Source: an uncultured Roseicyclus sp. (GTDB taxonomy: Bacteria; Pseudomonadota; Alphaproteobacteria; Rhodobacterales; Rhodobacteraceae). From it: 64,000 nucleotides of DNA. Shown here piece after piece: positions 50,418 to 59,271 of this stretch (its first letter is position 1; the number at the start of each line of letters is the position of its first letter). The notes under the pieces are model-generated. The model saw nothing but the letters and a program-made list of their open reading frames with translations, was not told the DNA's origin and ran no database searches. Position numbers and translations under genes: made by a program. The stretch covers positions 124,001-188,000 of the forward strand of contig CANLXA010000002.1 in assembly GCA_947494975.1 (NCBI GenBank). The letters run 5' to 3'.

Positions 50418-51530
50418 TCAACGAAATGTTGTTGCGGCCATAGGTTGCGCAATGGGAATGAGGTGATTGTCAAACGACCTTGGGTGGCTTCGCAGAAGCA
50501 CGGCTTGAGCGACGGAGCTCCAGTAGCCAACATCGCCTTCACCAGTGGCAAAACAGAATCCAGATCCGGCTCGACCGCTCAAACCACAGACATCTGGGGC
50601 AGCAATTGAGTGCGCGAAAGCCCGGCTGGCGGTATTGAAGACCTGAACCACTCCACCTCTTGGCGAACTGATGCCGACCAATCGGGCGCCGTTTGAAAAG
50701 GCAACACTGCCGGCATATCCTTGGAGTTCCAAATGATCTGCGTTGTCCGCTGCCAAGGGCTCGATAGGACTGCCTCTTTGATGCAGCCCAAGCAGCGCAG
50801 GGGCATCAAGCGGATCGCCTTGCCACTGCATGGCCAAGGCCACGGTCCCATCGGGCGCTACATCGAGATGGCGGATCGAGTTCATGCGGTAATCGGCACC
50901 CAACTCCAACTGCTCCAACACCGCCCCGTCCGGAGACACGTAGCTGAGATTGGGGCGCATTGTCGGAAGGTTCAGCTTGGCTCGACCACTATCGGGGTGG
51001 GTTTCGATACCGCCATTGGCAACGACGAGGGTTTCCGTGCCGGGCAGCCGCAGGATGTCGTGGGGACCAATGCCACCGGAGGCAATCTCAGCTACGCGGA
51101 TGTAACCCTGCCGTGCATCCCAGATGCCGATGACACCCCGGGCGGCATCAAAGTCATTCTCGGTCGTGTAGAGTGTCGATCCGTCGGCGGAGAAGGCGCC
51201 GTGTCCGTAGAAGTGGCGCCCGTCCGGTGCCGTGACGCGGGCAATCTCCGCTCCCGTGCTGCAATCAATAACAAGGGCGAACGTTCCTGGCCTGCGGGCG
51301 AAGGCTATGACCTCGGGACGGATTGGATGGGCCGCGGCGGCGTGGCCGCGGGCGGGAAGGTCGACTTCGAATATGATCTGCCCGCCAATGCCCAGTCCAC
51401 ACAATGTGTAGACCCCATCGGGGCGGAGGGCGGCGGTGACGTAGGCCGGATTTCCCGCATCGGCCCAGGTGGCTTTGGGGGCGAGGCCGGTGGCAAGAAG
51501 GCCAGCCAAGACGGCACGACGGGCAACCAT
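50418..51530 (-). CDS. DUF1513 beta-propeller-like protein
   Basis: A 370-residue exported protein. Its N-terminus (MVARRAVLAGLLATGLAPKATWADA) contains a twin-arginine-like RR and a cleavable signal. The body shows repeated propeller-like strands (VTAPDGRHFYGHGAFSADGSTLYTTENDFDAARGVIGIWDA; GGIGPHDILRLPGTETLVVANGGIETHPDSGR), the DUF1513 pattern. It is the last gene of an operon with two imelysins and a di-haem DUF1111 protein, a set usually tied to periplasmic iron uptake. Its start overlaps the imelysin stop (ATGA). The biochemical role is unknown. Confidence 0.87.
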   Translation of the reverse strand: MVARRAVLAGLLATGLAPKATWADAGNPAYVTAALRPDGVYTLCGLGIGGQIIFEVDLPARGHAAAAHPIRPEVIAFARRPGTFALVIDCSTGAEIARVTAPDGRHFYGHGAFSADGSTLYTTENDFDAARGVIGIWDARQGYIRVAEIASGGIGPHDILRLPGTETLVVANGGIETHPDSGRAKLNLPTMRPNLSYVSPDGAVLEQLELGADYRMNSIRHLDVAPDGTVALAMQWQGDPLDAPALLGLHQRGSPIEPLAADNADHLELQGYAGSVAFSNGARLVGISSPRGGVVQVFNTASRAFAHSIAAPDVCGLSGRAGSGFCFATGEGDVGYWSSVAQAVLLRSHPRSFDNHLIPIAQPMAATTFR

Positions 51531-52528
51531 CAGTCGCCATCCAGTGAGTTGAACCCAGCCGATACGCCAAGGCTTGGACCCATCTCTGTCACGATAAGCT
51601 CTCGCAACTCATTGATCCGCTGCTGGATCACCTCGATGCGAAAACGACCTTGGGGATCTGCCACACTGGCCAATGTTGGATCGTCCAGCCGCTCCAACTC
51701 CGAGATCGCCACGTCGAAGCCTGCGCGGATGTCAGCGTTGATAGCTGGGGCCGCGACCGTCAGAGCGGCTGACAACTCAGCCAACCCTTGCATGGAGATG
51801 ATCAGGTTCTGGACGGATCGCCCAGACCTGCGGGCCTCGGCCCGGTTGGGACGGGGGCGGTCGAAGGTGCCTAAGGGACGGCCAAGACGGATATCCGCGT
51901 TGAACTCCAATCCGGTCGTCAGGGCGTTGAACAGGGCCCGCATCGCCTCCGTCTGCGATTGGTAGCGGTCGTTGGTGCCCGCCATCCGCATCAGGTCCGC
52001 GTGGGTCCGGGTCCAATCCTGTTCTATCGCGGCGGTGGTCGTGGCGATGTCCGAAGCCACGACCTGAACCAGATCGCAACGGTAGGCGGCGTCCCCCCTG
52101 GTGGAGATGTCGGAATCGAACAACAGGAATTCCATGGCGTAAAACCCCCGCGCCGCGACGGAGACGCTGGCATAATCCGAGGCGATCACCGGATCGCTGG
52201 CGCCGATCAATTGCGCCAACGCCCGGGGTGTCGCTCCCCGGCTGTCGGGCCAGAACGCCAAGGCGAAGGCGCGGTTTTCCGCCTCGAACGGGCCGAACCG
52301 CAGGTGGCTGATGCGGACCCACGCATCGAAAGCTTCGTGGTAGGCCGCGACAAGCGCCGGGGACATGCAATCCTCGGCCGCCAGGGCAAGGGCCTGGCTG
52401 GCTTCTGCAAGCTGCGTCACCCCTGGCAGGACATGGTTGTTAAGGGCTGCATCGATGGCGGCTTGGTGGTCCTGAGCGGCAACTGCGGACGGAAGGGCGA
52501 CGATCAGGGCGAAGGTCGCAAGACGCAT
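51530..52528 (-). CDS. Imelysin-family protein (second copy)
   Basis: A 332-residue periplasmic protein with a signal peptide (MRLATFALIVALPSAVAAQ). It has two helical-bundle repeats of the imelysin/M75 fold. ISHLRFGPFEAENRAFALAFWPDSRG and GFYAMEFLLFDSD correspond to the family's Trp-Pro and GxHxxE segments. The usual His of GxHxxE is Tyr here (GFYAME), so metal binding may differ. It starts one base after the DUF1111 stop and overlaps DUF1513. It is probably an iron-binding uptake component without peptidase activity. Confidence 0.88.
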   Translation of the reverse strand: MRLATFALIVALPSAVAAQDHQAAIDAALNNHVLPGVTQLAEASQALALAAEDCMSPALVAAYHEAFDAWVRISHLRFGPFEAENRAFALAFWPDSRGATPRALAQLIGASDPVIASDYASVSVAARGFYAMEFLLFDSDISTRGDAAYRCDLVQVVASDIATTTAAIEQDWTRTHADLMRMAGTNDRYQSQTEAMRALFNALTTGLEFNADIRLGRPLGTFDRPRPNRAEARRSGRSVQNLIISMQGLAELSAALTVAAPAINADIRAGFDVAISELERLDDPTLASVADPQGRFRIEVIQQRINELRELIVTEMGPSLGVSAGFNSLDGD

Positions 52529-52529
52529 G

Positions 52530-54089
52530 TCACAGGCTTTCGAGGAAGGTGATCAGGGCGGCGCGATCAGCCGGCGGCATGGCAATGACGGCCTCGCGGG
52601 ACGCCTCTGCCTCTCCGCCGTGCCATAGGACGGCTTCCAACAGGTTACGGGCACGACCATCATGGAGGAAGTAGGTGTGGCCGCTGACCGTCTCCGTCAT
52701 GCCAATCCCCCAGAGTGGTGCGGTCCGCCATTCGCGGCCCGTTGCTCGTCCTTCAGGTCGGTTGTCAGCCAGTCCGTCACCCATATCGTGCAGCAACAGG
52801 TCGGTGTAGGGCCAGATCAACTGGAAGCTGGTGGCCGGATCGCGCTCCAGCCTGTGCGTGACAAAAGCAGGCGTGTGGCAGGCGGCACATTGGGCCGTGT
52901 GGAAGATCTCCCGTCCTCTGAGCACGGTTGGGTCGTCGACATCGCGGCGGGCGGGAACGGCGAGGTTCTGGCTGTAGAACGTCACCAGGTCGAGGCCAAC
53001 GTCATCGATTTCCAGCCCCTCCTGCTCGGGATCTCCCCCGTGCAGGGCAGCCACGCAATCCATTTGCATTTCGGTGCATTCGCCCCATCCGTTCGGGTGC
53101 AGTGCGTTCGAGATGCCGATATCGCCGGCGAAGGCACCGGCACTTTGTTCGCGGATCGTGGGGTTGCCTGCCTTATGGCCGAAGCGTCCCAACATCGGTT
53201 GGTTGTATTCCAGTGACCAGACGATCTGGGGGCGCCCGGAGATTCCGTCTCCATCGCGATCGTCCGGGTCGGCGTTGGCGAGGATGTCTTCCACGGGGAT
53301 CGCTTCCAACAGGCCAAGGCCAATCATCTGGTTGGCGATGCGTGGGCTGAGCATTGCATCGGGATGCAGGGGGCCGTAGCCGAGGTCGACGGCATCATAG
53401 GTGGGTTGGCGGAGCGTTGCTGTTTCGCCCCCGGACAGGGCCACCTCAATCTCTTCATACTCGATTTGAAGGGAGTATTCCGCGGCGAAGCCGGGAAGGC
53501 TGAAATCTTGCAACTGGGTGCCGTAATTCGGATCACCCTGTGTGGCGATGTAGTCCGCGATCTCGGACAAAGGGCCTGCGTTGATGGTTGGGGCAGGGAT
53601 TGAGATACGCAGGAACATCGACACGGAACTGTCGTCGGGTCCTTCCGGCGGATGGCCACGCCCGTCCTTGACGTGGCACCGCTGGCAGGACCGGGCGTTG
53701 TAGAGCGGCCCCAGACCGTCGCTCGCGAGGGTTGAGGCCGGGGCCGTCACCCAGAGCCGGCGGAACAACCCGTTCCCGACCCTGAAGTTCAACTCGCCCT
53801 CGAAGCTGAGGTTTCCCAATGGCTGTGAAAATGCATCGGCGTTCTGACGGGGCCTGACAGTGCCCGCCCCGGCCGAGTTTTCCTCGAACGGAAGGGCAAC
53901 CGTGAAATCAACGGGCGCAGCCGTGATCGCCGCGATCCGGGCCCGTTCTTCATCGGTGCGGGGAATAACATCCAGATGCACATCGGCAAGCCCCTCCCAT
54001 GCGGGTACGGGCGGGGTGGTATCGCTATTGGCCGCCAGGGCGAGAGCCAAGGCGATGGAGGCGGCGAGAAGGGGGGCTGATCGGTTCAT
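52530..54089 (-). CDS. Di-haem oxidoreductase (DUF1111 / thiol-oxidoreductase-like)
   Basis: A c-type cytochrome of about 519 residues with a signal peptide (MNRSAPLLAASIALALALAANS). Haem-binding motifs are CQRCH (near residue 150) and CAACH (near residue 400), as in the DUF1111 di-haem family related to MauG/CcpA. Between them are DGDGISGRPQIVW, RFGHKAGNPTIREQSAGAFAGDIGISN and LWGIGMTETVSGHTYFLHDGRARNL, all family-typical. The start is uncertain: ATG at 54089 or at 54104; neither has a strong SD. It lies between two imelysin genes and may oxidise Fe(II) or a partner during iron uptake (inference). Confidence 0.9.
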   Translation of the reverse strand: MNRSAPLLAASIALALALAANSDTTPPVPAWEGLADVHLDVIPRTDEERARIAAITAAPVDFTVALPFEENSAGAGTVRPRQNADAFSQPLGNLSFEGELNFRVGNGLFRRLWVTAPASTLASDGLGPLYNARSCQRCHVKDGRGHPPEGPDDSSVSMFLRISIPAPTINAGPLSEIADYIATQGDPNYGTQLQDFSLPGFAAEYSLQIEYEEIEVALSGGETATLRQPTYDAVDLGYGPLHPDAMLSPRIANQMIGLGLLEAIPVEDILANADPDDRDGDGISGRPQIVWSLEYNQPMLGRFGHKAGNPTIREQSAGAFAGDIGISNALHPNGWGECTEMQMDCVAALHGGDPEQEGLEIDDVGLDLVTFYSQNLAVPARRDVDDPTVLRGREIFHTAQCAACHTPAFVTHRLERDPATSFQLIWPYTDLLLHDMGDGLADNRPEGRATGREWRTAPLWGIGMTETVSGHTYFLHDGRARNLLEAVLWHGGEAEASREAVIAMPPADRAALITFLESL

Positions 54090-54147
54090 CTTTGCAATCC
54101 GCATCGGGTGAAGTGACATACATTGCCACTTCACCCTGCCTTGTGGG

Positions 54148-55410
54148 TTACTCGAAGACGGCGGATGGATTGTCGAGACTGTCGGATCCCTCAAAAGCGA
54201 TCGTGTCGAGGCCAAGCGCGACGACGATCCGCTCAATCGTCTGGGTCTGGGCTATGAGGCCGTTGACACCACCCATGATGAGGGCCTCACCGGCCTCATT
54301 CCCGCGTTCCAGCATCTGATCGTAGGCAAAGCCCGCCTCCGCCGCGAGGACAATCTGGCCAAGCTCGCGCATCGTCTCGGACAGGCGGATGCGCATTTCC
54401 GTGTCCAAAGCCGGATCGGTCGCGGCGACCAGATCAGACAGCGACGGCCCGCTGACGACGGTGCCGTCGGCCCGGACGTATTCGCCAAGGTAGACGTTCT
54501 GCACGCCAAGACCGTCGAGATAATGGTCGTTATGGGTGTTGTCGGCGAAGCAGGAATGCTCTTCCTCCGGGTCATTGAGCATGACGCCAAGGCGCATCCG
54601 TTCGCCCGCGACTTCCCCGTAGGAGAGCGATCCCATGCCGGTCAGCATCGCAGAGATCCCGGCGTCCGGATCGGCCATTACGGCAGCACGGGCATCGCCG
54701 CCTTCCACCCATTGGGCCGCCATCCATTCCAGATCGCTCACCAGAAGCTCGGTCGCCGCGGTCAGATACTCCGCGCGGCGGTCACAGTTGCCGCCGGTGC
54801 ACGCGTCGCCTGCTGCGAAATCCGTCCAGGGACGGTTGCCCGCACCGGGGCCGTGGCCGTTCAGGTCTTGGCCCCAAAGCAGAAACTCGATGGCGTGGTA
54901 GCCCGTGGCCACGTTCGCCTCGATCCCATCGGCCTCGTGCAGCGTCTCTTCCAAAAGGGCGGGTGTGATAATGCTGGCGTCGATCTCTGTCCCCGACAAT
55001 GTGAAGGAGGCATTGGCGATGACGTTGAGCGCGGCAAGCTCGTTCTCGTCGCTCGGGCCCCCGTATCCTCCGTCCACATAGTCGATCAGGCCTTCGTCCA
55101 GCGGCCAGGCGTTCACCCGGCCTTCCCAGTCATCGACGATGGCATTGCCGAAGCGATACACCTCGGTTTGCTGGTAAGGGACCCGTGCGGCCAGCCACGC
55201 GGCCCGGGCGGCAGTAAGCACCTCTGCCGAGGGGTTTGCGACCAGGTCCGCAACCGCCTCTTCCAGCGCTTCGGCCGTGATCAGGCTGTCTTCATAGCCC
55301 GCTGCCGCAATGTTTGCGTATGTGGTCAAGACGTCGGTGGCCTCTTGTGCCATCGCCGGTCCGGCAAAGAATGTGGCCAAGGCTGTGGTTGTCAGGATCG
55401 TTCTTTTCAT
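54148..55410 (-). CDS. Imelysin-family protein (first copy)
   Basis: A 420-residue periplasmic protein. The signal peptide is MKRTILTTTALATFFAGPAMAQE. The imelysin motifs are intact: RFGNAIVDDWEGRVNAWPLDEGLIDYVDG, and GYHAIEFLLWGQDLNG with the GxHxxE signature near residue 170, plus a CTGGNC disulfide loop. This long form matches iron-regulated imelysins such as IrpA. It is the first gene of the imelysin-DUF1111-imelysin-DUF1513 operon, with a leader of more than 200 nt containing an iron-box-like palindrome and a hairpin. Confidence 0.92.
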   Translation of the reverse strand: MKRTILTTTALATFFAGPAMAQEATDVLTTYANIAAAGYEDSLITAEALEEAVADLVANPSAEVLTAARAAWLAARVPYQQTEVYRFGNAIVDDWEGRVNAWPLDEGLIDYVDGGYGGPSDENELAALNVIANASFTLSGTEIDASIITPALLEETLHEADGIEANVATGYHAIEFLLWGQDLNGHGPGAGNRPWTDFAAGDACTGGNCDRRAEYLTAATELLVSDLEWMAAQWVEGGDARAAVMADPDAGISAMLTGMGSLSYGEVAGERMRLGVMLNDPEEEHSCFADNTHNDHYLDGLGVQNVYLGEYVRADGTVVSGPSLSDLVAATDPALDTEMRIRLSETMRELGQIVLAAEAGFAYDQMLERGNEAGEALIMGGVNGLIAQTQTIERIVVALGLDTIAFEGSDSLDNPSAVFE

Positions 55411-55504
55411 CGCGCAGTGTCCCTTGTGTGCGGTCAGTTGGATCGACTGGCTTACGCATAGGCACTGGCTGGGTCGAAGTGGGTGTGTCGGTCAGGAATT
55501 CAAA

Positions 55505-55561
55505 AGACGGCGATGCATCCGCGTTGGAACAAATACATTCCAACAGATGCGCTCGCCGTCT
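55505..55561 (-). promoter_or_regulatory. Long hairpin in the imelysin leader (attenuator or terminator)
   Basis: AGACGGCGA (55505-55513) pairs with TCGCCGTCT (55553-55561), and inside it GTTGGAA (55523-55529) pairs with TTCCAAC (55538-55544), giving a stem of over 20 bp with small bulges and an 8-nt loop. On the minus strand the stem ends in CCGTCTTTTG, a short U-run. It may terminate the upstream cupredoxin operon or attenuate the imelysin transcript. Confidence 0.6.
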
Positions 55562-55644
55562 GTTGCAGCATTGGTCCGGATTTCGGTCCGCCACTATCCA
55601 ATTCCCTGCATGCAGGAGGGCTGACTCGCCCTCTGTGGATAATC

Positions 55645-55661
55645 CTGACCTATTTAGTCAG
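55645..55661. promoter_or_regulatory. Iron-box-like palindrome (TGA-N9-TCA)
   Basis: CTGACCTATTTAGTCAG is a perfect 5-bp dyad and fits TGA-N9-TCA, the shape of the RirA/IRO and Iron-Rhodo boxes bound by Rrf2-type iron regulators in alphaproteobacteria. It lies about 235 bp upstream of the first imelysin gene in a metal-uptake region. Binding by RirA or IscR is inferred. Confidence 0.6.
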
Positions 55662-55729
55662 ATAATGCAAAGCGAGATTGGGAGACACGGCAACATGTCG
55701 CGATCTGACACATCACAGACATCCGGCAA

Positions 55730-56218
55730 TCAACTCAGGTCGATCTCTTCGAACAACGCTCTGAAAGCAGCCCTGGCTCGGTCTCGCTGCCTGACCGACC
55801 GGGCGGCATCGAGGTTGGAAAGGTCATTGCCGACAATGATCAAGCCCACCATTCCAACCTCATAGTGGGGTGTGCAGACATAGCCGTAGACCCCCGGCAC
55901 GCTCATTTCGAGGGTGACCACTTCGTCCACCCCGCCGTTCCACGGCTCGACCCCCTCGGGGATCATGCCGCGTCGGGCGGCGGTGTTGTGGCCCGTGTCG
56001 GTGGGAATGAATGTCACCACATCACCAGTGGCCGCATGTAGAATGGGTGGTTCGAACACGTTGATGTTCTGATCGTCAGAGCAAGCCGCGTTCAGCATCA
56101 TGATGACATGATGGCCGGGGGTGAGGAGGGGCACGTTATTGGCGAGGGCCACGCCGGTGAAACCCGCAAAGACACCAGCGGAGACAAGAAAATGGCGGCG
56201 GCCGGGATCAGTAGGCAT
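55730..56218 (-). CDS. Cupredoxin (pseudoazurin/plastocyanin-like), exported
   Basis: A 162-residue protein with an RR-containing leader (RRHFLVSAGVFAGFTGVALA) and a blue-copper-type domain. FEPPILHAATGDVVTFIPTDTGHNTAARRGMIPEGVEPW holds the first His ligand (GHN), and VPGVYGYVCTPHYEVGMVGLIIV holds the Cys-His-Met set. A C-terminal helix follows. It is probably periplasmic and binds copper for electron transfer. The start overlaps the end of the ABC ATPase gene by 11 bp, so it is the fourth gene of a metal-type ABC operon, an unusual pairing. Confidence 0.87.
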   Translation of the reverse strand: MPTDPGRRHFLVSAGVFAGFTGVALANNVPLLTPGHHVIMMLNAACSDDQNINVFEPPILHAATGDVVTFIPTDTGHNTAARRGMIPEGVEPWNGGVDEVVTLEMSVPGVYGYVCTPHYEVGMVGLIIVGNDLSNLDAARSVRQRDRARAAFRALFEEIDLS

Positions 56219-56975
56219 GAACGAGCAAATCCTTCCGAGGACCTACGGTCACTTCGATGTTCACGCCGTAAGTGCTGGCAATCGTGTGGCTGCGAAGAAC
56301 GACATCAGGCGGCCCTTGGGCCAGGATGCGCCCTTCACCCAACAGGATCAGGTGATCGGCGAAACGGGCCGCTAGGTTCAGGTCATGGAGCGCGACCAGC
56401 CCCGTGACTTGCCGGTCGGACATGGCATCACGGATGCGGCTCAAAACGTCGAGTTGGTGACGTAGATCGAGGGCGGATGTCGGCTCGTCGAACAGATAAA
56501 CATCTGATCGGCGAACGAGGGCCTGGACGACCGAGACCATCTGGGATTGGCCGCCAGACAACTCGCTCACGTAAGCTTCCGACAGGTGCCCGATGCCGCC
56601 CTGATGCAGCGCCTTCGCCACCGCGTCGATATCCGCGCTGCCGACTTTCCAACCGCGAAGCTGCTTTTGGGCCATCATCACCACGTCGAACACGGTGAGT
56701 GCCGCGTTCGCAGTGAAGAATTGCGGCATGAAGCACACCTGTTGCAGGCGTCTTCGGGTGGTCAGTTTGGCAAGGTCCTGATCGCCAAGGTGAACCTGTC
56801 CGCTGCTGGGCTTCAGCAACCCTGCAATCAAGCGGAACAACGTGGATTTGCCGGATGCATTGGGGCCGATCAAGGCGGTCAGCTTGCCAGTGGGCAGCGG
56901 AGCAAACCCGACACCTTTGAGGATGGGCCGGCGCCCGTATGCGAATTCCAGACCGGAGACCTGCAGACCACTCAT
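56208..56975 (-). CDS. FecE-type ABC transporter ATPase
   Basis: A 255-residue ATPase. Walker A GPNASGKST is near residue 40, the signature ELSGGQSQM near 137, Walker B VYLFDEPTSALD near 157, and the switch ALHDLNLAARF near 193. This matches FecE/BtuD-class importers of ferric siderophores, haem or cobalamin. The track ORF extends into the permease in another frame; the ATG at 56975 overlaps the permease stop (ATGA) and is used here. It works in the cytoplasm with the FecCD permease. Confidence 0.93.
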   Translation of the reverse strand: MSGLQVSGLEFAYGRRPILKGVGFAPLPTGKLTALIGPNASGKSTLFRLIAGLLKPSSGQVHLGDQDLAKLTTRRRLQQVCFMPQFFTANAALTVFDVVMMAQKQLRGWKVGSADIDAVAKALHQGGIGHLSEAYVSELSGGQSQMVSVVQALVRRSDVYLFDEPTSALDLRHQLDVLSRIRDAMSDRQVTGLVALHDLNLAARFADHLILLGEGRILAQGPPDVVLRSHTIASTYGVNIEVTVGPRKDLLVHAY

Positions 56976-58045
56976 TGCCAGTGTCTTTTGCGTTGGGTGA
57001 GGATGAGAGAGATGAAGAACGGAATACCGATCAACGACGTGATCATCCCGATGGGGTAGACGACGCCCGGTGTGATCGACTTCGATGCGATGGAGGTGCC
57101 CGACAGGATCAACGCTCCGCACAAGGCGGATAGCGGTAGAAATCCGCGCTGATCTTCGCCAACGATCAGCCGCGCGATATGTGGCCCCACGAGGCCCACA
57201 AAGGCAATCGCGCCGACGAAGGACACGGCGACCGCTGACAGGAGCGAAACCCCTGCCAAAACGGCAAGGCGTAGTCCGCTGACGTTGACGCCGAGGGCGG
57301 CGGCTTTGTCCTCTCCCATCCTGAGCGCCGTCAGAGCCCAGGACTTGTAAATGAAATAGGGCAGGACAATCGCCAACAGCGCGACGCAGATCCCGACCTT
57401 CTCCCATGTGGCCCGGGCCAGCGATCCCATTTGCCAGAAGATGAGTTGAGCCAGCTGGATCTCTGATGCACCGTATTGCAGGAACATCAACAGCGCGTTG
57501 AAGGTGAACAGCATGGCGATGCCCACCAGGATCATCGCCTCGGGCGAGACCCCGCGCAGACGGGTGAAGGCAAACAGGCCGAGCGAGGTCAGCATCGCCA
57601 TGACGAACGCATTCACCGTCACGAACAGACCACCCACGCCGGGGATCAGGGACCATCCCAGAACGATGGCGAGGGCGGCCCCGAAACTGGCGGCGGACGA
57701 AAGCCCAAGCGTGAACGGGTCCGCCAGCGGATTGTTGAGGATCGTCTGCATTTCGGCCCCAGCCACGCCAAGCATGGCGCCAACGGCAACAGCCATCAGG
57801 GCGACGGGCAGGCGAAGGCCCCAGATCACGACCGCTTCGTTCGTTGTGGCGATTGACGGTTGCAGGATGACTTGGATCACGCGCCCGATGCTCGCGTCAA
57901 ACGGGCCGGAGACGATATCCAGCAGAACGGTAAGGCAGAGGATCGCGATGGCCGTGCCGACGATCACGGCGCGCCTGGTGATCGACTTTCGGTATCCAGT
58001 CGAGATGTCGGACACACTTGGTCCGAGCACGGGTGTATCTGTCAT
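56972..58045 (-). CDS. FecCD-family ABC permease
   Basis: A 357-residue, about ten-helix permease. RLPVALMAVAVGAMLGVAGAEMQTILNNPLADPFTLGLSSAASFGAALAIVLG is the classic BtuC/FecCD motif region, and VAFVGLVGPHIARLIVGEDQRGFLPLSALCGALIL the second. It forms a homodimeric channel with two ATPase subunits. It is 71 bp after the binding-protein gene. The substrate class is an iron chelate, haem or B12; the surrounding imelysin genes favour iron. Confidence 0.94.
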   Translation of the reverse strand: MTDTPVLGPSVSDISTGYRKSITRRAVIVGTAIAILCLTVLLDIVSGPFDASIGRVIQVILQPSIATTNEAVVIWGLRLPVALMAVAVGAMLGVAGAEMQTILNNPLADPFTLGLSSAASFGAALAIVLGWSLIPGVGGLFVTVNAFVMAMLTSLGLFAFTRLRGVSPEAMILVGIAMLFTFNALLMFLQYGASEIQLAQLIFWQMGSLARATWEKVGICVALLAIVLPYFIYKSWALTALRMGEDKAAALGVNVSGLRLAVLAGVSLLSAVAVSFVGAIAFVGLVGPHIARLIVGEDQRGFLPLSALCGALILSGTSIASKSITPGVVYPIGMITSLIGIPFFISLILTQRKRHWQ

Positions 58046-58116
58046 CGAATTGATCCTGATTGGAGAGATTGGCGGCGGCCCAGAGCAATTCCCAGCCGCC
58101 GCCCATGGTCCGCTGG

Positions 58117-59271
58117 TCAGTTGGACAAGCTGACCCAGAACTGACCCTCGAAGCCATACGGCAGGAACCGATAATGAAGACGTGTCATGGTCTCTTCCGG
58201 GTCAAGGTCCGGGAACGCGTCGGGGTGTAGCCACACTGCGATCTGTTGGATGGCAACGAAGTGGAAAGGCGAGTTATAGAACTGGTGATAGATGGAATGC
58301 ATCCGGCCTTCCTCCACCGCCCGCAGGGTCTCGAACCCGGGACGCGCGGCCAGGGCTTGCAGACGTTCCTGGTTCACGGCCTCTGAACCCTCGTACCCCA
58401 GAAGTGTCGCGGTGACTTCCGGGCGAGCCTCGGACCAATTGGCACCGGTGCTCAGCATCACGTCCGGATCGGCGGCGATGATGCCTTCGAGGGTGATCTC
58501 CACACTGTAGGCGTTCGCCAGGGTGGAGCCATAGTTCACGCCCCCGGCAAGCTCGATGAAGCGGCCATAATTGTAGCTTCCGAACGTGTTGCAGCAGAAA
58601 TCCGGGTTCCAGCCTGCGGCGTTCTCCATCACGACAAGGGGGCGCTCTTCCGCCGGAATGCCGTCGACAACGTTGGTCACACGGCGCATCTCGGCGATGT
58701 AGAAGTCGATGAACTCGGCCGCGTTGGCCTCTTCCCCCAACAGGCGGCCCAAGATCAGCAGCGATGGGACGGTATTCTCCGTCGCATTGCGGCGGAAGTC
58801 GATGAAGACCACGGGCACGCCTGCTTCGTCGAGTCGTTCAATCAGGCCGGTTTCTTCGGCGTTGAACAACCCGCCCAAGTCCAGCAGAACCAGGTCGGCC
58901 TCATTCTGAAGCACGGCCTCGATGCTGAAATCGCTGGAGTATGGATTGCCGAAGTTGATCAGCCGATCCGTATCCTCGGGGAAGGCGGCCTCGAACCGGC
59001 GGAAGGCGTCGGGGTCGTAAAGGATCAGGTCGTCCTTCCACCCGATGATGTTTTCGAACGGGTTGCCGTCCTCGATGGCCGCGATGGAATACATCATCCG
59101 CCCCTCGCCGAGGACGATGCGGGTGGGACGATCGGGCAACGTCACTTCGCGGCCTGCAATATCGGTGAGAGTGAAGGCTTCGGCTTGAGCATCAGGGGCG
59201 GACGCGACCACAAGGGTTGCGCTGGCTGCTATAGCACCAAGGAAGCCGCTGAAACGTGTCTGGAACGACAT
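58117..59271 (-). CDS. FepB/BtuF-type periplasmic binding protein
   Basis: A 384-residue solute-binding protein with a Sec signal (about residues 1-30). The N-terminal domain starts FTLTDIAGREVTLPDRPTRIVL, with DLVLLDLGGLFNAEETGLIERLDEAGVPVVFIDFR as the middle helix region typical of class III binding proteins with a long rigid helix. WNPDFCCNTFGSYNYG carries adjacent cysteines, uncommon in this family. It is the first gene of the binding protein-permease-ATPase-cupredoxin operon. It likely binds a ferric siderophore or haem. Confidence 0.91.
   Translation of the reverse strand: MSFQTRFSGFLGAIAASATLVVASAPDAQAEAFTLTDIAGREVTLPDRPTRIVLGEGRMMYSIAAIEDGNPFENIIGWKDDLILYDPDAFRRFEAAFPEDTDRLINFGNPYSSDFSIEAVLQNEADLVLLDLGGLFNAEETGLIERLDEAGVPVVFIDFRRNATENTVPSLLILGRLLGEEANAAEFIDFYIAEMRRVTNVVDGIPAEERPLVVMENAAGWNPDFCCNTFGSYNYGRFIELAGGVNYGSTLANAYSVEITLEGIIAADPDVMLSTGANWSEARPEVTATLLGYEGSEAVNQERLQALAARPGFETLRAVEEGRMHSIYHQFYNSPFHFVAIQQIAVWLHPDAFPDLDPEETMTRLHYRFLPYGFEGQFWVSLSN

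Follow-up and report, generated by a model that had tools for sequence, protein, structure and literature searches.

The imelysin operon and the gap in front of it

The window, a stretch of 64,000 nucleotides (G000:C2:124001-188000), carries minus-strand genes in a Rhodobacteraceae-type genome. The following genes concern us here.

50418-51530, minus strand: DUF1513 gene (PF07433, E 1.5e-115)
51530-52528, minus strand: imelysin gene 2 (PF09375, E 1.3e-52)
52530-54119, minus strand: di-haem oxidoreductase (DHOR) gene (PF06537, E 1.5e-95)
54148-55410, minus strand: imelysin gene 1 (Peptidase_M75), ATG at 55410 (PF09375, E 4.7e-87)
55730-56218, minus strand: pseudoazurin gene, the last of an upstream Fec-type ABC transporter cluster (TIGR02375, above its cut-off)

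The operon reads imelysin 1, DHOR, imelysin 2 and DUF1513, and a gap of 319 bases separates imelysin 1 from the pseudoazurin gene. Two imelysin-like proteins flanking a di-haem (EfeB/DHOR-type) oxidoreductase recall the iron-regulated, Fur-controlled imelysin operon of Pseudomonas, which has a similar gene arrangement (PMC3143127); iron control at the present locus is predicted from sequence. Unlike the Pseudomonas operon, the window has an IscR-type box instead of Fur and an additional small gene in front. Upstream of the pseudoazurin gene, the Fec-type cluster encodes a periplasmic protein, a FecCD permease and an ATPase (matches to Peripla_BP_2, FecCD and ABC_tran). The transporter/pseudoazurin cluster (55730-59271) has no strong box of its own within the window, though it adjoins a box-controlled operon.

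The gap and the start of imelysin 1 hold the features listed below.

55292-55423, minus strand: window-specific continuation of the small-gene frame beyond the imelysin start, caused by a 1-base deletion compared with congeners (open reading frame listed as 55292-55594)
55420-55425, minus strand: imelysin Shine-Dalgarno sequence AAGGGA, within the small-gene 3' end (from the sequence; conserved in congeners)
55424-55594, minus strand: small protein gene with a GTG start at 55594 and 57 codons homologous to congeners, MADRNPDQCCNRRRAHLLECICSNADASPSFEFLTDTPTSTQPVPMRKPVDPTDRTQ (dN/dS; orthologs L089, L090, L093 and L096)
55505-55561, minus strand: long stem-loop, wholly inside the small gene (MFE -35.2 kcal/mol)
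55603-55607, minus strand: small-gene Shine-Dalgarno sequence AGGGA, 8 nt ahead of the start codon (AGGG or AAGGG in relatives)
55616-55633, minus strand: short dyad GAGGGC-GAGTCA-GCCCTC, a predicted 5'-terminal transcript hairpin starting a few bases past the -10
55642-55647, minus strand: inferred -10 element CAGGAT, overlapped by the box (CAGgtA/CAGgAt in relatives)
55644-55662, no strand assigned: Iron-Rhodo-box (putative IscR operator) TCTGACTAAATAGGTCAGG, read on the minus strand (23.3 bits)
55665-55670, minus strand: inferred -35 element TTGCAT (spaced from the box as TTGACn is in relatives; matched in L112)

The iron box and its candidate reader

A sequence-only reading of the locus had noted an iron-box-like palindrome ahead of imelysin 1 and had proposed transcriptional iron control. 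The palindrome is indeed present (CTGACCTATTTAGTCAG at 55645-55661) and lies inside the 19-bp site. We scored this site with a 19-bp matrix made from imelysin promoters of other Rhodobacteraceae. Of 80 related loci fetched with imelysin, 17 have AT-rich TGA-N9-TCA copies within 300 nt of the gene, and their 20 sites served for training, with the window excluded. The window box stands well apart: the next best site in the 64 kb scored 12.8 bits, and 4.5 Mb of random sequence yielded no site equal to it. The bare TGA-N9-TCA pattern occurs 26 times in the 64 kb and is no evidence when taken alone; the genome-wide box check used this pattern only. The window site combines the TGA-N9-TCA palindrome with the AT-rich core of an Iron-Rhodo-box.

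The position of the box agrees with that of an operator. It occupies the spacer of the inferred promoter pair TTGCAT-N17-CAGGAT and reaches into the -10 (layout TTGCAT-TATC-TGACTAAATAGGTCAG), and the arrangement TTG-N3-N4-TGA-N9-TCAG is common to the window and its relatives. In many relatives the box lies at a fixed distance past TTGACn and ends in the -10, while others have a further copy upstream. IscR of Rhodobacter sphaeroides, whose only Cys lies in a CP motif, binds the Iron-Rhodo-box at sites overlapping the -35/-10 and represses hemP, irpA and others (PMC4618611). The window genome has one Rrf2 gene above the cut-off (L097), which adjoins a cysteine desulfurase gene, and the only Cys of its product lies in VPCPAV, as in the single-Cys, CP-motif type of IscR. 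Both locus and genome thus resemble the R. sphaeroides regulon in that a 19-bp TGA-N9-TCA palindrome covers the promoter of an iron operon of the irpA (imelysin) type and that IscR has a single Cys. They differ from R. sphaeroides in that the operon opens with an unrelated small gene and not with hemP, and in that iscR is without a strong box, which was looked for in front of the gene and not found.

The site over the promoter is convincingly an Iron-Rhodo-box by sequence, and a putative IscR site. A reader other than IscR (Irr or Fur/Mur) is quite unlikely: the genome does contain three FUR-family genes, but TGA-N9-TCA is the Iron-Rhodo-box, a known IscR target in this bacterial family (PMC4618611). 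RirA is not indicated either, because it would be another Rrf2 protein and the one gene above the cut-off is of the IscR type; no second Rrf2 gene passes. Of the earlier proposals, transcriptional iron control is well supported at the level of prediction by the box score, by a promoter geometry common to related loci and by a matching single-cysteine IscR in the genome.

A small gene at the head of the operon

Between the box and imelysin 1 lies a previously unannotated small gene, unseen in the sequence-only reading, which opens the operon. Congener G209 shares 81% identity with the window over 921 bases around the intergenic region; within them, positions 55414-55594 reach 90% DNA identity, against 78.5% for the pseudoazurin gene. 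One frame of about 62 codons is open in the window and in congeners G209, G199 and G202. Among the orthologs, this frame gives dN/dS values of 0.17-0.29, and most comparisons in the other two frames yield values around 1 or higher; changes at codon positions 1, 2 and 3 number 17, 12 and 38, respectively (P 2e-4, two independent pairs). AGGG or AAGGG precedes the start by 6-8 nt in all five species; the start codon is ATG, but GTG in the window. The fifth species belongs to another genus (G327) and has a diverged ortholog (45% identity) in the same place, with a clear Shine-Dalgarno sequence (AAAGGGACAGCAATG) and an ATGA overlap with imelysin. The encoded protein (consensus MADRxxDxCCNRRRELLLECxCSDADxSPSFEFLTDxxTSTQPVPMRxPVDPTDRTKRDTAx) has an Arg-rich N-terminus with one invariant Cys and a Pro-rich tail containing the conserved TSTQPVPxxxPVDPTDRT.

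The small-gene stop overlaps the imelysin start (ATGA) in four of the five species, all but that of the window. Here one base is missing (CACACAAGGG in the window versus CACCAAAAGGG), so that positions 55420-55435 are one base shorter than in three congeners (deletion near 55425); the difference reflects a true mutation or else a mistake in the assembly.

The distribution of the gene is narrow. About 1300 genome searches, partly overlapping, placed it in just 4 of the 13 congener genomes and in the one other genus. Three congeners (G203, G206 and G207) have imelysin and no intact small gene, and G203 retains a short decayed similarity at the 3' end. Judged by these comparisons, the small gene is real, but narrow and evolutionarily dispensable.

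Several other candidates were considered. Weak matches elsewhere in the order (G031, G074, G465, G537 and G622) have no imelysin nearby and were set aside as chance, and a weak match in G729 contains one stop and belongs to another family. Loci L005 and L022 (Boseongicola and Roseovarius) have open reading frames of about 60-77 codons directly upstream of imelysin, also with an ATGA overlap; as relatives of the small gene they were rejected, with non-significant scores of 0.5 and 7 bits. Congener G199 has a second, degenerate copy (L087:1461-1679; G199:C1:1883244-1883423) that has lost its ending and adjoins a truncated integrase gene. Compared with the intact copies, it gives dN/dS values of 0.42-0.52, at higher divergence.

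We consider it probable, from these sequence features, that the locus is an IscR-repressed iron operon whose first cistron encodes a small Pro-tailed protein and is probably coupled in translation to imelysin. Iron-sulfur-loaded IscR on the palindrome, over the spacer and the -10, would block transcription when iron is sufficient, and the operon would open when iron is scarce, as suggested by the box, the promoter geometry and the presence of the regulator. The transcript would start just past the box, with the GGGC/GCCC hairpin first and the small protein next. Imelysin translation most likely draws on that of the small gene, because the imelysin ribosome-binding site lies inside the small-gene end and, in the other four species, stop and start overlap. 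With one base lost near the 3' end, the frame in the window's species would overrun the imelysin start, and this tight coupling would be relaxed. Against the proposal as a whole stand the rarity of the small gene and its absence next to imelysin in three congeners, the GTG start and frameshifted end of the window copy, the iscR gene without a strong box, and the three FUR-family genes.

The small protein and the hairpins

The small protein had no match in Pfam or NCBIfam and a single, non-significant one in PHROGs. By inspection its N-terminus is polar and Arg-rich, with no signal or membrane segment visible, and from its sequence we infer a cytoplasmic protein; CXXC, RAPP and PP motifs are absent. 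The structure model (mean pLDDT 63, helix at residues 6-22, loose tail) was too weak for a fold search. HemP (PF10636) is likewise a small protein, and in several relatives its gene immediately precedes imelysin, but it is not similar to the small protein of the window, which did not match PF10636 while a HemP control from L011 did (1.6e-15).

Other small genes occupy related positions. In many Rhodobacteraceae (35 related loci, e.g. L045:5505-5981 and L004:5503-5982) imelysin is directly preceded by a gene of a family whose proteins have about 159 residues and share CxxC, GRRPxxRH and CxCxGxDE motifs; one member scanned had no Pfam or NCBIfam match. In these loci the best box is often found some 900 nt upstream of imelysin, ahead of the family gene. 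Kinship of the small protein with this 159-residue Cys protein was rejected at an hhalign probability of 0.4%. A different small protein (..F.GLS[ML]EWVFDR[YF]..) is encoded at L003:5497-5668 and L011:5591-5756, its stop overlapping or abutting the start of hemP, so small genes with stop-start overlaps at the head of iron operons may be a habit of the family.

In Rhodobacteraceae, a box and often hemP are known to head iron operons, and metal-sensing nascent-peptide leaders are known for copper. A conserved small gene overlapping the imelysin start could be either an iron-linked leader peptide or a small iron protein, and the two are directly testable. Tentatively, the protein could act independently in iron handling or regulation, as is thought for HemP-type small proteins, with the overlap reflecting compact gene packing. 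Purifying selection on the protein sequence is consistent with such a role, as are the equivalent place of hemP in several relatives and the survival of the gene in the window although the coupling is disturbed. The missing Pfam and NCBIfam matches, the non-significant PHROGs match, the dissimilarity to HemP and to the 159-residue family, and the loss of the gene in close relatives argue against it.

It is unlikely that the small gene encodes a leader peptide that works as a sensor, its nascent chain stalling or releasing ribosomes in response to the status of iron, Fe-S, haem or copper and thereby controlling the genes downstream. CruR and CutF, small Cys-containing leader genes that control metal operons during their own translation, show that the mechanism is possible (PMC9426467, PMC9973294), and the small gene resembles a leader in being the first cistron and in its conserved Cys, conserved tail and stop-start overlap. 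Like CruR (DUF2946), an upstream ORF of Bordetella pertussis (PMC9426467), it is a small metal-operon leader gene with a Cys and a conserved C-terminal end. Unlike CruR, its product has 62 instead of about 145 residues, no sequence relation and no export signal; CXXC and RAPP about 45 residues apart and a DUF2946 match, which mark that family, were not found. CutF of Rhodobacter capsulatus, from a related bacterium, shares the position in a metal operon and a Pro-containing C-terminus (PMC9973294). It differs in its Sec signal peptide, which the small protein lacks, and in a stem-loop over the next ribosome-binding site; the window stem (55505-55561) is 80 nt from the imelysin site at 55420-55425 and does not cover it. 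The parallel is therefore one of position and logic only, since the features that define both families are absent. Only one Cys is invariant, no CXXC, RAPP or PP motif is present, no signal or membrane segment is seen, and the window copy, with its frameshift, would not preserve a precise geometry for coupling by stalling. The more specific version, a cytoplasmic CruR/CutF counterpart sensing iron, Fe-S or haem as a post-transcriptional layer over IscR repression, is improbable. The IscR-repressed operon with a coupled small gene remains our preferred reading.

The long stem had been put forward as a structured leader and possible attenuator. It exists (55505-55561, 24 pairs, then UUUUG) and is more stable than shuffles of itself (z -5.2 in one run, -6.7 in another), but folds at least as stable are common in the GC-rich 64 kb (351 of 5326 same-size windows). 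Its z falls from -6.7 in the window to -2.2 in G209, -0.9 in G199, -0.3 in G202 and +0.4 in G327. Pairing persists in part (83% of cells, window included), and pair changes are no more compensatory than in shuffles, 244 of 500 of which score at least as high as the four orthologs analysed. The U-run that had been described is real as a short run, but its four U's fail a terminator scan for a GC-rich stem followed by at least five T. Rfam covariance models gave no match to the leader up to E 5. As a conserved structure the stem was rejected on the related sequences and on the distant ortholog.

We conclude that the long stem is a by-product of the sequence in the window's species and not a switch; what looks like a 'structured leader' in a single genome can turn out to be coding sequence. 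As an attenuator, the stem would be a regulated terminator or folding switch that halts transcription ahead of imelysin under iron-replete conditions; the strong stem between promoter and gene and the four U's after it speak for this. Such an attenuator is very improbable: the stem lies within a conserved coding frame and is not kept in relatives, its pair changes match those of shuffles, its U-run is too short, no competing antiterminator fold is apparent, and equally stable folds are common in the window. That the stem terminates the upstream Fec-pseudoazurin operon, downstream of whose pseudoazurin gene it lies on the same strand, is just as improbable, as it is not conserved and sits about 170 nt past the stop codon, downstream of a promoter and within a different gene; a terminator scan between the pseudoazurin gene and the stem found none.

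The GAGGGC/GCCCTC dyad had also been described, and it is present as GAGGGC-N6-GCCCTC at 55616-55633. As a genome-wide repeated operator it was rejected, an exact copy being found only here. Covariation in the dyad is matched by 86 of 500 shuffles, with five sequences only. Directly after the -10, the dyad is kept with small changes in three congeners (G209, G199 and G202) and in the other genus (G327). It may be a genuine 5'-terminal mRNA hairpin, and a role in message stability is our guess.
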